The notes under the pieces are model-generated. The model was not told the DNA's origin. It did not search any database and saw only the letters and a list, made by a program, of their open reading frames with translations. From assembly GCF_000177375.1 (NCBI RefSeq), contig NZ_ADFR01000003.1, forward strand, positions 1 to 64,000: a stretch of 64,000 nucleotides of DNA. The letters are read 5' to 3'. This stretch comes from Bulleidia extructa W1219 (GTDB taxonomy: Bacteria > Bacillota_I > Bacilli_A > Erysipelotrichales > Erysipelotrichaceae). The translations under genes and the position numbers were made by a program. This document shows positions 2 through 5,638 of this stretch, in pieces. Numbering within the stretch: the first letter of the stretch is position 1; the number at the start of each line of letters is the position of its first letter.

Positions 2-652
2 GAAAAACAAGTTAAAAAACAAGGATTCCTAGGTCGTTTAATCTCCGAAAGTCCCGTGTTTAGTATGTATCTTGGTTTGTGTTCAACGCTGGCAATTTCT
101 ACCAGTTTGAATAATGCTCTTGGTATGGGGATTGGTGTTATCTTTGTATTGGTATTATCGAATATGTTGGTATCCATGGTTCGCCACATCACGCCAGATG
201 ATATTCACATTCCTGTTTATATTACTATTATTGCTACTTTGGTAACGGTTTTATCAATGTTGATGCATGCTTTTACTCCAACCTTGTTTACAGCATTGGG
301 TGCTTTCTTGGATTTGATTACAGTGAACTGTATTATCTTAGGTCGTGCCGAAGCGTTTGCTTGTAAGAACAATGTGGTAGATTCTGTCAAAGATGGTTTC
401 CAAATGGGGTTAGCCTATACGGGAGCTTTATTGTGCATGGCGGTGATTCGTCAAATTGTAGGAACAGGGATTTTATCCTTATCAAATCCTTTTACCGATC
501 AGTTGATTTTCAAAGTTCAATTGATTCCGGTAGGCTTTGAAATTCCATTATTTACAGAACAGTTTGGGGCCTTTATTACTTTTGCATGTATTGCAGCATT
601 AGTGGCTAATTATAAAAATAGATTAGCGACACAAGGAAAGAGAGGTAAATAA
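2..652 (+). CDS. rnfE: RnfE, electron transport complex subunit E (5' end cut off)
   Basis: Integral membrane subunit of the ion-pumping Rnf complex, which couples reduced ferredoxin oxidation to NAD+ reduction. The frame is open from base 2, so the true start lies just upstream of the window; an in-frame GTG at 56 falls inside the conserved region and is not a credible start. The visible 216 residues are very hydrophobic, with about six membrane segments. The family pattern LGLCSTLAISTSL is present, and a second Cys sits in TVNCIILG. In Rnf structures these two Cys, with the two of RnfA, hold an intramembrane [2Fe-2S] cluster. RnfA follows two bases after the stop, so they share an operon; rnfC, rnfD and rnfG are presumably upstream. 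Confidence 0.95.
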   Translation, partial: EKQVKKQGFLGRLISESPVFSMYLGLCSTLAISTSLNNALGMGIGVIFVLVLSNMLVSMVRHITPDDIHIPVYITIIATLVTVLSMLMHAFTPTLFTALGAFLDLITVNCIILGRAEAFACKNNVVDSVKDGFQMGLAYTGALLCMAVIRQIVGTGILSLSNPFTDQLIFKVQLIPVGFEIPLFTEQFGAFITFACIAALVANYKNRLATQGKRGK

Positions 653-654
653 AA

Positions 655-1227
655 ATGGATTTATTTACTTTATTGATTGGTGGTTTATTCATTAACAATA
701 TCATCCTGACAAAGTTTTTAGGTATGTGTCCTTTTATGGGGGTTTCCACCAAATTGGAATCGGCTTTAGGCATGGGAGTTGCGGTGATATTCGTTATTTT
801 CGGATCATCCGTTATTGCTTGGACGATTTATCATTATGTATTGGTTCCATTTCACATTGAATATATGGAGTTGATTACCTTTATCTTATTGATTGCTGCC
901 TTTGTTCAATTTGTGGAGTTGTTTATTAAAAAGAGCACGCCGGCTTTGTATAAGAGTTTAGGCATTTATCTTCCATTGATTACAACCAATTGTGCGGTTT
1001 TATTCGTTGCTCAAGATAACATTGCACAAGGTTATGATTTGGTTCATACAATGGTTAATTCTATTGCGATTCCAGCTGGTTTTGCACTAATGTTATTAAT
1101 TTTCGCTTCAATTCGTACACGTCTTCAACAAAATGATATTCCAAAGGCGTTTCAAGGAAATCCAATTGCAATGATTTGTGCGGCTATTATGGCGGTTGCT
1201 TTCTCTGCTTTAGCGGGTTTGGTTTAA
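655..1227 (+). CDS. rnfA: RnfA, electron transport complex subunit A
   Basis: A 190-residue membrane subunit of the Rnf complex, homologous to RnfE and to NqrE. The start lies three bases after the rnfE stop. Cys25 in LGMCPFMG and a second Cys in TTNCAVLF match the ligands of the intramembrane [2Fe-2S] cluster. About six transmembrane helices are visible and the length is normal for the family. The last codon overlaps the start of the next small gene by one base (TAATG), pointing to translational coupling. I am confident of this identification from the family motifs. Confidence 0.96.
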   Translation: MDLFTLLIGGLFINNIILTKFLGMCPFMGVSTKLESALGMGVAVIFVIFGSSVIAWTIYHYVLVPFHIEYMELITFILLIAAFVQFVELFIKKSTPALYKSLGIYLPLITTNCAVLFVAQDNIAQGYDLVHTMVNSIAIPAGFALMLLIFASIRTRLQQNDIPKAFQGNPIAMICAAIMAVAFSALAGLV

Positions 1228-1421
1228 TGCCGGCAGGAGTGGTTGCGGCGCTGATTGCCGTTGGATTAGTGGGTTTAAATGTTTGGCTATTAAGAGCTAA
1301 TCGTAAAACACCAGTTCCAAAGGGATGTGAAAATATAAAACCGGATTGTGAAGCGTGCTGTCTATCGGATTGTGAAGTACGTCATTTATACAAAGAAAGT
1401 AAAGTGGAGAAAGGAAAATAA
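1227..1421 (+). CDS. Small Cys-rich membrane protein between rnfA and rnfB, possible NqrM-like maturation factor
   Basis: A 64-residue protein whose ATG overlaps the rnfA stop; a longer reading from 1176 would overlap rnfA and is less likely. Residues 4-22 form one transmembrane segment. They are followed by basic residues and a cluster of five cysteines (C34, C41, C44, C45, C49). Single TM plus cytosolic Cys cluster is the architecture of NqrM (DUF539), the small protein needed to build the iron centre between NqrD and NqrE, which are homologues of RnfE and RnfA. The position directly beside rnfE and rnfA fits such a role. I see no residue-level identity that proves homology, so the function is inferred from architecture and context. 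Confidence 0.75.
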   Translation: MPAGVVAALIAVGLVGLNVWLLRANRKTPVPKGCENIKPDCEACCLSDCEVRHLYKESKVEKGK

Positions 1422-1422
1422 T

Positions 1423-1701
1423 ATGCAATTTGTCTATCCGACAGTCTTAATGATCGTTTTAGGTGCTTTGTTGGGGGCTATTTTGTCCTTTGCTTCTAAG
1501 AAGTTTGCGGTGGAAGTGGATACACGAGTAGAAGATGTTCGTGCTCTTCTACCAGGTTTGAATTGTGGGGCATGTGGAACTCCTGGTTGTGATGCCATGG
1601 CACAAATGCTTGTGAATGGTGAAATCAGTGTTGACCGTTGTCGTCCATCTAAACCGGATCAAAAGGAAGCGATCAATCGGTATTTAGCTGAAAATAGATA
1701 G
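1423..1701 (+). CDS. rnfB: RnfB, short form with membrane anchor and one [4Fe-4S] domain only
   Basis: Residues 6-28 form the N-terminal membrane anchor. A cluster domain follows with the Cys pattern C-GA-C-GTPG-C and a fourth Cys about 16 residues later (VDRC), the hallmark of the RnfB Fe-S domain. The protein stops at 92 residues, whereas most RnfB proteins exceed 180 and carry extra ferredoxin-type clusters at the C-terminus. No continuation exists in another frame: an intrinsic terminator and a tRNA gene follow at once. Start chosen at the ATG one base after the previous gene; the longer in-frame reading from 1348 runs through that gene. Electrons may enter through another subunit or a separate ferredoxin. 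Confidence 0.88.
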   Translation: MQFVYPTVLMIVLGALLGAILSFASKKFAVEVDTRVEDVRALLPGLNCGACGTPGCDAMAQMLVNGEISVDRCRPSKPDQKEAINRYLAENR

Positions 1702-3565: not shown

Positions 3566-5638
3566 ATGCAATTAAGAGATTATAAAGCCAATGAGGTTCG
3601 TAATGTTGTTGTTCTTGGTCACTCTGGAGCAGGTAAGTCTTCTTTAATTGAAGCAGCCATGTTTTATACTAAAGAAATTGATAAATACGGTAAAAACCAA
3701 GATGGAACAACCACTTTAAATTATGATGCAGAAGAAGGAAAACGTGGGTTATCGGTTTATTGCCATGTAGCTCCTGTTCTCTGGAAAGAAATGAAAATCA
3801 ATTTTATTGATACCCCGGGATATTTGGATTATCAAGGTGAAGAGGCGACCGGTTTAAGAGTGGGTGATAATGCTTTGATTGTTGTGGACGCAAAAGAATC
3901 TTTGAAATCAGGAACGATTCGAGCATGGAAAGAAGCGGCTCTTAAACAACAATTACCGACCATCTTCTTTATCAATAAGTTAGACGATGATCAGGCAGAT
4001 TTCCAAACACGTTATGAAGAATTAAGAGAAAAATTTGGTAAATCGGTGATTTTATTTGAAAGACCAATCATCGAAAACCGCAAAGTCTTAGGATCGGTGA
4101 ATATTCTTCGTAAGAAAGCTTGGTATTATGATCGTCCAAATAAACCGGAGCCGATACCGGATCAGTTAAAAGATGAAGTGGAAGCGTATTACAATGAAAT
4201 CAGTGAAGCCATTGCGATGGGTGATGATGAATTGATGGAAAAATTCTTCTCGGGAGAGGCCTTTGATGAGCATGAATTGGCTAAGGGCTTACGTTTGGGT
4301 GTTCGTTCAGGAGAGATTCGCCCTGTTTATTGCGGAAGTGCTGATCAACAGACCGGTATTGAACGTTTGTTGGATTTGATTCATGAATACTTCCCAAGCT
4401 ATGCAGAAAAAGGAAATGTGGAAGCGGAAGATCTCAAAGGAAATTCAGTTCTGTTAGAAACGAATGAGCAAGAAGCTTTGAGTGCCTTCATCTTTAAGAC
4501 AATCGTTGATCCTTATGTGGGTAAGATCTCTTATCTAAAGGTGATGAGTGGTGTTTTGAATAGTGATTCACAGGTATATAATCCTAAGAAAGAAATCACG
4601 GAAAAGGTTTCACAAGTGTATGTCTTAAATGGTAAATATCAAATTGGTGTGGGTAAGTTATTCACTGGTGATATTGGAGCGGTTGTGAAATTACAAAAGA
4701 GTGAAACTGGAGATACATTGGGAACACGAGCAAAAGAAGTCATTTATCCGGAAATTGAGTATCCAAAACCAATGCTAGGTTATGCCATTCACCCGGTTTC
4801 CAAGGCTGATGAAGACAAATTATCAGTGGGCATTCATAACTTGATGTCAGAAGATAAGACTATCCATTTTGTGAATAATGAAGAAACACATGAACAAGTA
4901 TTGTATGGGTTAGGAGATCAACATATTGATGTGATTCTTAGTAAATTGAAATCAAAATATAAAGTTCAGGTCACCACTTCCATTCCAATCATTCAATACC
5001 GTGAAACAATCACACAAACGGCTGAAGCACAAGGTCGCTATAAGAAACAAAATGGTGGCGCTGGTCAATTTGGTGATGTATGGGTACGCTTTGAACCATG
5101 TGATAGTGAAGAAATGGTTTTTGAAGAAGAAGTATTTGGTGGTGCTGTGCCAAAACAATTCTTTGCGCCAACGGAAACAGGTTTGCGTGAAGCTATGAAG
5201 AAAGGACCTTTAGCCGGTTATAAAGTGGTTGGTATTAAAGCAACTTTATACGATGGATCCTATCATCCGGTAGATTCAAAAGAGAATGCCTTTAAAGAAG
5301 CGGCTCGTTTGGCTGTTCAGGCAGGGTTACCAAAGGCGAAACCTGTCTTATTGGAACCGATTGGCAAGGTGACGGTTATGGCTCCGGAAGAGTATACAGG
5401 GACGATTATGGGTGATTTCACAAAGAGACGTGGCGTAATTACAGATGTAAATGCGAATGAAACAGGTGAACAAATCATTCAGGCAGAAGTGCCAATGGCA
5501 GAAATGTTGACGTATGCGGCCGAACTACGGTCCATGAGTCAAGGGGTTGGAACGTATGTTTTAAGTTTTGATCGTTATGAACAAGCTCCTCATGATGTAT
5601 CAGAAAAAGTGATTGCAACCAGAAAGGAAGCGGAATAA
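3566..5638 (+). CDS. Elongation factor G-like translational GTPase (FusA2 type)
   Basis: A 690-residue protein with the EF-G domain order. The GTPase domain carries P-loop GHSGAGKSS (about residues 18-26), DTPGY (G3) and NKLD (G4), followed by domains II to V; GAGQFGDVWVRFEP marks domain IV. The P-loop GHSGAGK differs from the GHIDAGK of canonical EF-G and matches the EF-G-like subgroup found beside normal fusA in many bacteria. Its role is unclear; a paralogue in translation or ribosome rescue is usual speculation. It lacks the sequence style of tetracycline-resistance TetM proteins. Co-transcribed with the ankyrin gene. Confidence 0.9.
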   Translation: MQLRDYKANEVRNVVVLGHSGAGKSSLIEAAMFYTKEIDKYGKNQDGTTTLNYDAEEGKRGLSVYCHVAPVLWKEMKINFIDTPGYLDYQGEEATGLRVGDNALIVVDAKESLKSGTIRAWKEAALKQQLPTIFFINKLDDDQADFQTRYEELREKFGKSVILFERPIIENRKVLGSVNILRKKAWYYDRPNKPEPIPDQLKDEVEAYYNEISEAIAMGDDELMEKFFSGEAFDEHELAKGLRLGVRSGEIRPVYCGSADQQTGIERLLDLIHEYFPSYAEKGNVEAEDLKGNSVLLETNEQEALSAFIFKTIVDPYVGKISYLKVMSGVLNSDSQVYNPKKEITEKVSQVYVLNGKYQIGVGKLFTGDIGAVVKLQKSETGDTLGTRAKEVIYPEIEYPKPMLGYAIHPVSKADEDKLSVGIHNLMSEDKTIHFVNNEETHEQVLYGLGDQHIDVILSKLKSKYKVQVTTSIPIIQYRETITQTAEAQGRYKKQNGGAGQFGDVWVRFEPCDSEEMVFEEEVFGGAVPKQFFAPTETGLREAMKKGPLAGYKVVGIKATLYDGSYHPVDSKENAFKEAARLAVQAGLPKAKPVLLEPIGKVTVMAPEEYTGTIMGDFTKRRGVITDVNANETGEQIIQAEVPMAEMLTYAAELRSMSQGVGTYVLSFDRYEQAPHDVSEKVIATRKEAE

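Follow-up and report, generated by a model that had tools for sequence, protein, structure and literature searches.

A 64 aa protein encoded between rnfA and rnfB in Bulleidia extructa W1219 was found to belong to a family of small membrane proteins that accompanies the Rnf complexes of Bacilli. The protein represents a separate, undescribed family, which probably serves the Bacilli-type Rnf in a way similar to that in which NqrM serves Nqr. For the complexes of the Rnf/Nqr type, the insertion of the unusual intramembrane [2Fe-2S] cluster has been outlined for Nqr alone, through NqrM. A counterpart for Rnf, found in most of the sampled Rnf-using Bacilli, would make Rnf assembly genetically testable, and would aid the heterologous expression of Rnf pumps.

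The small gene in the rnf operon

The window, which is the whole 64,000-nucleotide stretch of DNA that was analyzed, starts inside an rnf operon. The genes rnfE, rnfA, the small open reading frame and rnfB follow each other on the forward strand. The features of this region are:

2-652 (+): rnfE, truncated 5′ by the contig start
655-1227 (+): rnfA, TIGR01943 match above the cut-off
1227-1421 (+): gene of the small membrane protein (64 aa, one helix, Cys-rich), ATG start
1233-1304 (+): predicted membrane helix of the small protein, residues 3-26 (AlphaFold2 model)
1326-1373 (+): Cys cluster of the small protein, residues 34-49, with C34, C41, C44, (C45) and C49 (alignments A1 and A2)
1423-1701 (+): short rnfB, 92 aa, membrane helix and one Fe-S domain (PF04060)

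The ATG codon of the small gene overlaps the stop codon of rnfA by 1 nt (TAATG). The AlphaFold2 model of its product is essentially a single helix, with a mean pLDDT above 90 across residues 1-20. C-terminal to this hydrophobic helix, five cysteines (34, 41, 44, 45 and 49) are placed within 16 residues. The length of 64 residues, the single membrane segment, the five clustered cysteines and the overlap with the rnfA stop had been described in a previous sequence-only reading of the window, and all of them were confirmed. The same reading was silent on the short form of RnfB, which consists only of a helix and a single PF04060 domain and has no ferredoxin domains. Such a minimal Rnf bears on the question of how electrons from ferredoxin enter the pump. 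Further 3′ of rnfB, the window contains a gene encoding an elongation-factor-G-like protein of about 690 aa (3566-5638, +). A similar gene is located 3′ of the rnf operon in a distant genome (L306 4489-6570, +), which may be a coincidence.

The RnfA search of the named genomes returned 71 loci. A homologue of the small protein is encoded between rnfA and rnfB in all 69 rnfA loci of the Erysipelotrichales type, and it is missing only in the other two, both of which are titled proteobacterium. The homologues of the order are 53-68 aa long, and in the 69 loci their genes start between -4 and +6 nt from the rnfA stop. The rnfB gene is short (91-106 aa) in each of the 66 order loci in which it was readable. 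The small protein is under strong purifying selection, with a dN/dS of about 0.1: the comparison with the same-genus copy in the genome G014 gave about 0.13 (dN 0.10, dS 0.75), and other close pairs showed the same tendency. Because homologues occupy the same place in 69 of 69 loci and the dN/dS is low, the small open reading frame is a real conserved gene and not a chance reading frame.

Ten positions are invariant in the 35 aligned members, namely N25, T28, P29, P31, G33, C34, E35, C41, C44 and C49; the G014 copy, which is outside this alignment, carries D at position 33. Only four of the five cysteines of the window protein are conserved across the order. Cys45 is lineage-specific, and the G014 copy of the same genus has Gly instead. 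Across the alignment of the whole class, three cysteines (41, 44 and 49) are invariant. The general pattern of the family is one helix followed by N-x2-T-x2-P...C-x2-C-x4/5-C, commonly with a fourth, upstream cysteine, which has been lost in several lineages. Family members are between 34 and about 90 aa long. Many membrane complexes have accessory subunits with a single helix, and the conserved N-x2-TP linker would also suit a structural subunit that stabilizes the packing of the RnfA/RnfE or RnfB helices, with the cysteines used for a disulfide or zinc. In the alignments A1 and A2 the helix varies and the cysteines rank with the best-conserved positions, which argues against this role, and we consider it very improbable.

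Distribution across the class and the type of Rnf

The class sample comprised 296 genomes, many of them MAGs. A match to TIGR01943 (RnfA) was found in 165 genomes and the small protein in 134, the weak match in G305 being left out. The small protein is present in 131 of the 165 RnfA-positive genomes versus 3 of the 131 RnfA-negative ones (Fisher p ~5e-47, uncorrected for phylogeny). In 94 genomes its match starts 0-48 nt behind the rnfA match. The wider profile A2 revealed the small protein in 12 of the 34 remaining RnfA-positive genomes, and direct reading added five more. One of these is G405, which encodes a 57 aa form. The others are four genomes of f12, 0.8-0.9 Mb in size, with minimal forms of 34-40 aa which keep only the helix and three or four cysteines and are encoded between rnfA and rnfB:

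L287 1385-1492 (-): minimal form, between rnfA and rnfB
L286 534-647 (-): minimal form, between rnfA and rnfB
L251 333-503 (-): minimal form, between rnfA and rnfB
L252: minimal form, between rnfA and rnfB, read directly

Four apparent Rnf genomes without the small protein (G237, G371, G349 and G402) were discarded, as the gene order NqrD-NqrE-NqrF identifies their operons as Nqr-type. The genomes G261, G276, G282 and G377 are likewise taken to be Nqr-type by their genus, their score and the lack of RnfB. Nqr-type operons with the order B, C, D, E, F were read in Bacilli at L296 8488-13790 (-), L297 8708-14491 (-) and L300 3-3251; the stretches read contained no recognizable adjoining nqrA and no NqrM motif.

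After the use of the wider profile and the reading of the exceptions, the small protein was found in about 148 of 157 Rnf genomes. The nine Rnf genomes without it are five of the genus g127, the 55%-complete genome G230, and three members of f17 (G393, G416 and G428), a lineage whose copies of the gene are for the most part divergent and unlinked to rnf. When g127 is left aside, the small protein is present in 148 of 152 genomes with a Bacilli-type Rnf, the counts being phylogenetically non-independent. A survey of rnf operons in Erysipelotrichia had been suggested by the sequence-only reading, and it revealed a near-universal gene in the genomes with Bacilli-type Rnf, not the absence that would speak against the idea. 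Outside the Bacilli, 150 genomes of another phylum gave three marginal matches, two of which were inspected and proved to be unrelated frames. Clostridia were covered through their published structures only.

The exception of g127 is informative. This genus has a full-length RnfB, with 267-277 aa in the complete copies, that contains ferredoxin-type Cys motifs. In the tree, the RnfA of g127 clusters with those of A. woodii and C. tetanomorphum (support 99/94). The small protein is present in other genera of the family, whose Rnf is Bacilli-type (G199, G250, G315 and G446). Since the Rnf of g127 is clostridial-type and lacks the protein while these other genera possess it, the small protein tracks the type of Rnf and not the host lineage. 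The proposal of the sequence-only reading, an Rnf-specific maturation factor, is partly supported by the analysis.

In the class sample, full-length RnfB was found only in g127. This coincidence could also be read as a sign that the small protein serves in electron transfer or docking as a stoichiometric subunit, which provides an extra cluster or a ferredoxin dock beside RnfB and partly replaces the missing ferredoxin domains. The location of the gene directly before a consistently short rnfB would agree with such a function, as would the C-x2-C-x4-C motif, which is similar to the beginning of the Fe-S motif in RnfB, and the four cysteines of most members. However, the Rnf of g127 is a separate clostridial-type lineage, and therefore the correlation between the long RnfB and the absence of the small protein is a single evolutionary event. 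The loss of the fourth cysteine in several lineages and the large variation in length also argue against an electron-transfer subunit, which we regard as unlikely.

Unlinked copies and the proposed role

About 28 genomes, and most of the 12 added by the wider profile, have the gene at a site away from rnf. In f22, for example, it is located between a phosphomannomutase-like gene and a uracil-DNA glycosylase gene, and in f17 and G199 beside aspS and a dCMP deaminase gene, as named from the reading of translations. In the genomes with an unlinked copy, rnfA and rnfB are directly adjacent in the rnf operons read. Six genomes of f14 (G207, G240, G264, G218, G229 and G343) contain two or three rnf operons, and the small protein is encoded behind rnfA in only one of them. 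In the other f14 operons that were read, rnfA touches rnfB and the RnfB is equally short. In several of these genomes a three-Cys paralogue is encoded at another site and may help.

If the small protein were an obligate subunit making up for the short RnfB, it would be expected in every operon; its presence in one operon only favors an assembly factor. The unlinked sites and the single copy for several operons are more in keeping with an assembly factor acting in trans than with an obligate subunit. Both observations count against the electron-transfer subunit and the structural subunit considered above.

Two further variations of rnf genes were observed. The f14 gene at the rnfG position encodes about 640-670 aa, far above the usual RnfG (L302 126-2051, L307 174-2183 and L309 176-2128). 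In the family f9, RnfB has 184-192 aa, with a helix, two PF04060-like Fe-S domains in tandem and no ferredoxin domains (L148 4125-4688 (-), L184 and L190), a form between the short and the full-length RnfB.

In A. woodii the intramembrane [2Fe-2S] cluster is coordinated by C25 and C113 of RnfA and by C25 and C108 of RnfE (PMC11889175). The site shared by the two proteins, which the sequence-only reading had invoked, has its four ligand cysteines in the window. C25 (727-729) and C113 (991-993) of RnfA match the A. woodii ligands of the same numbers, and the RnfE cysteines at 80-82 and 329-331 (C27 and C110 of the truncated frame) match C25 and C108. The membrane helix of RnfB and its mobile B8 [4Fe-4S] domain pass electrons to the membrane [2Fe-2S] cluster (PMC11889175). 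By its sequence, the part retained in the short RnfB corresponds to this electron-passing helix and a B8-like domain. Because the RnfA and RnfE ligands are present and the electron-passing part of RnfB is kept, the maturation of the RnfA/RnfE cluster is ranked first among the possible functions. The suggested action of NqrM on the homologous NqrD/NqrE site (PMC12174285, PMC6209661) is a precedent for a maturation factor of Rnf.

We propose, with about even confidence, that the small protein is an NqrM-like but separate iron or Fe-S maturation factor of the Bacilli-type Rnf. Its metal or cluster binding, topology, target site and assembly role are what we infer from the comparisons described here. 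The single helix would anchor the protein in the membrane, with the Cys cluster behind it, most likely at the cytosolic face, although a charge count favored neither side of the membrane. The cysteines would hold iron or a labile Fe-S cluster and hand it to Rnf. The likeliest target would be the [2Fe-2S] site shared by RnfA and RnfE in the membrane, and the second candidate is the [4Fe-4S] domain of RnfB. Translation coupled to that of rnfA may deliver the small protein as RnfA is made.

Several points speak against maturation. The published clostridial and proteobacterial Rnf structures contain no such subunit, and the same [2Fe-2S] site is assembled in them. As other Rnf complexes assemble this site, a need specific to Bacilli must be assumed. 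The lack of an NqrM motif in the stretches read of the Nqr-type operons of the class is a further point. The extra rnf operons without the gene may simply not require the small protein. Furthermore, its clearest absences coincide with the full-length RnfB, which is equally explained by an electron-transfer subunit. A broader statement that covers both functions can be made with somewhat greater confidence. The Rnf of Bacilli would be a minimal complex in which ferredoxin meets a stripped-down RnfB, and it would depend on a one-helix Cys protein, in some cases perhaps as small as 34 aa, that either builds the intramembrane [2Fe-2S] cluster or carries electrons into it.

Comparison with known protein families

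The window protein gave no match above the cut-off to any Pfam or NCBIfam model. No PDB chain matches A1, and the RnfA matches in the PDB include no Bacilli-type Rnf. Long frames in G337, G104, G361, G351 and G357 were considered as natural fusions and rejected, as they represent open sequence upstream of the gene. The literature search, with subscription papers mostly outside its reach, returned no paper on the small protein, on Rnf maturation factors or on the short RnfB of the clade, in agreement with the previous remark that the protein had not been described.

The nearest known family, judged by a profile similarity below the Pfam cut-off, appears to be PF12669 (FeoB_associated). PF12669 does not match the window protein. 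It weakly matches 13 of the 35 relatives (best E 0.0013), below its gathering cut-off of 27 bits, and membership in this family was rejected for that reason. The profile of 18 FeoB_associated sequences scored 40.6 against the small-protein profile, compared with 24.0 +/- 2.1 for column shuffles, none of 100 being as good, and hhalign gave a probability of 94% over a short, low-complexity aligned region. The resemblance points to PF12669, because its score exceeds all 100 column shuffles and that of NqrM does not. Both families consist of small proteins with an N-terminal helix followed by a Cys cluster; the motif N-x2-TP-x-P-x-GCE distinguishes the small protein. The Cys motif of PF12669 is commonly tied to iron binding, and the function of the family is unsettled (PMC8749426). 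No feoB was recognized beside the unlinked small-protein loci with listed genes, and the linked copies adjoin rnfA and rnfB.

This similarity raises the alternative that the rnf operon has taken up a general iron- or copper-handling, redox-sensing or regulatory membrane peptide of the FeoB-associated type. Such a peptide would tune Rnf to the metal or redox state and have no part in its assembly. Paralogues are found in apparent copper-handling clusters with CsoR and HMA proteins (L146 3008-3151 (+) and L148 3148-3348 (-)) and next to pdhA, and three cysteines suffice in the family, all of which would agree with tuning. The likeness to PF12669, which is presumed to bind iron, and the paralogues near copper genes would suit maturation as well. 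On the other hand, the copies follow the presence of Rnf closely. On a different contig, the window genome also encodes a distinct PF12669 protein (G000:C15:18897-19007, L217), with no feoB recognized within 3.1 kb around it. A tuning function is, in our opinion, rather improbable.

The small protein shares with the Fe-S domain of RnfB (PF04060, B8) a helix followed by C-x2-C-x4-C, and its gene adjoins rnfB. Unlike this domain, it has no PF04060 match, and its fourth cysteine is located upstream, whereas the last cysteine of RnfB is about 16 residues downstream. RnfH of the Azotobacter Rnf1, compared here by its description only, is likewise an extra Rnf protein of some lineages. It is cytoplasmic and without a redox cofactor (PMC12174285), whereas the small protein would be membrane-anchored by its one predicted helix.

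NqrM is seemingly required for the [2Fe-2S] insertion into Nqr (PMC12174285) and is predicted to deliver iron to NqrD and NqrE (PMC6209661). The sequence-only reading had regarded the small protein as a possible Rnf version of NqrM and suggested a DUF539 search. PF04400 matched neither the window protein at E <= 10 nor any of the 35 relatives at E <= 1, and it does match in 15 of 100 genomes of another phylum. An NqrM profile of 12 sequences, collected with PF04400 from genomes of that kind, scored 31.2 against the small-protein profile. Shuffling of the post-helix columns gave 27.9 +/- 2.9, with 11 of 100 shuffles as good, and no homology to NqrM beyond the membrane helix was detected. The GSCGG motif has no trace in A1 and A2, which contain GCE or no cysteine at this position. 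The small protein is therefore not a member of the NqrM family, and of the proposed kinship only the architecture and the Rnf setting stand. NqrM accompanies Nqr and has an invariant G-[ST]-C-G before the other cysteines, whereas the small protein accompanies Rnf and lacks this motif. Both proteins have one N-terminal helix soon followed by four cysteines, both accompany a complex of the Rnf/Nqr type, and for both a role at the homologous [2Fe-2S] site is suggested. The likeness to NqrM is thus one of architecture and setting, and an analogy by function only is plausible.
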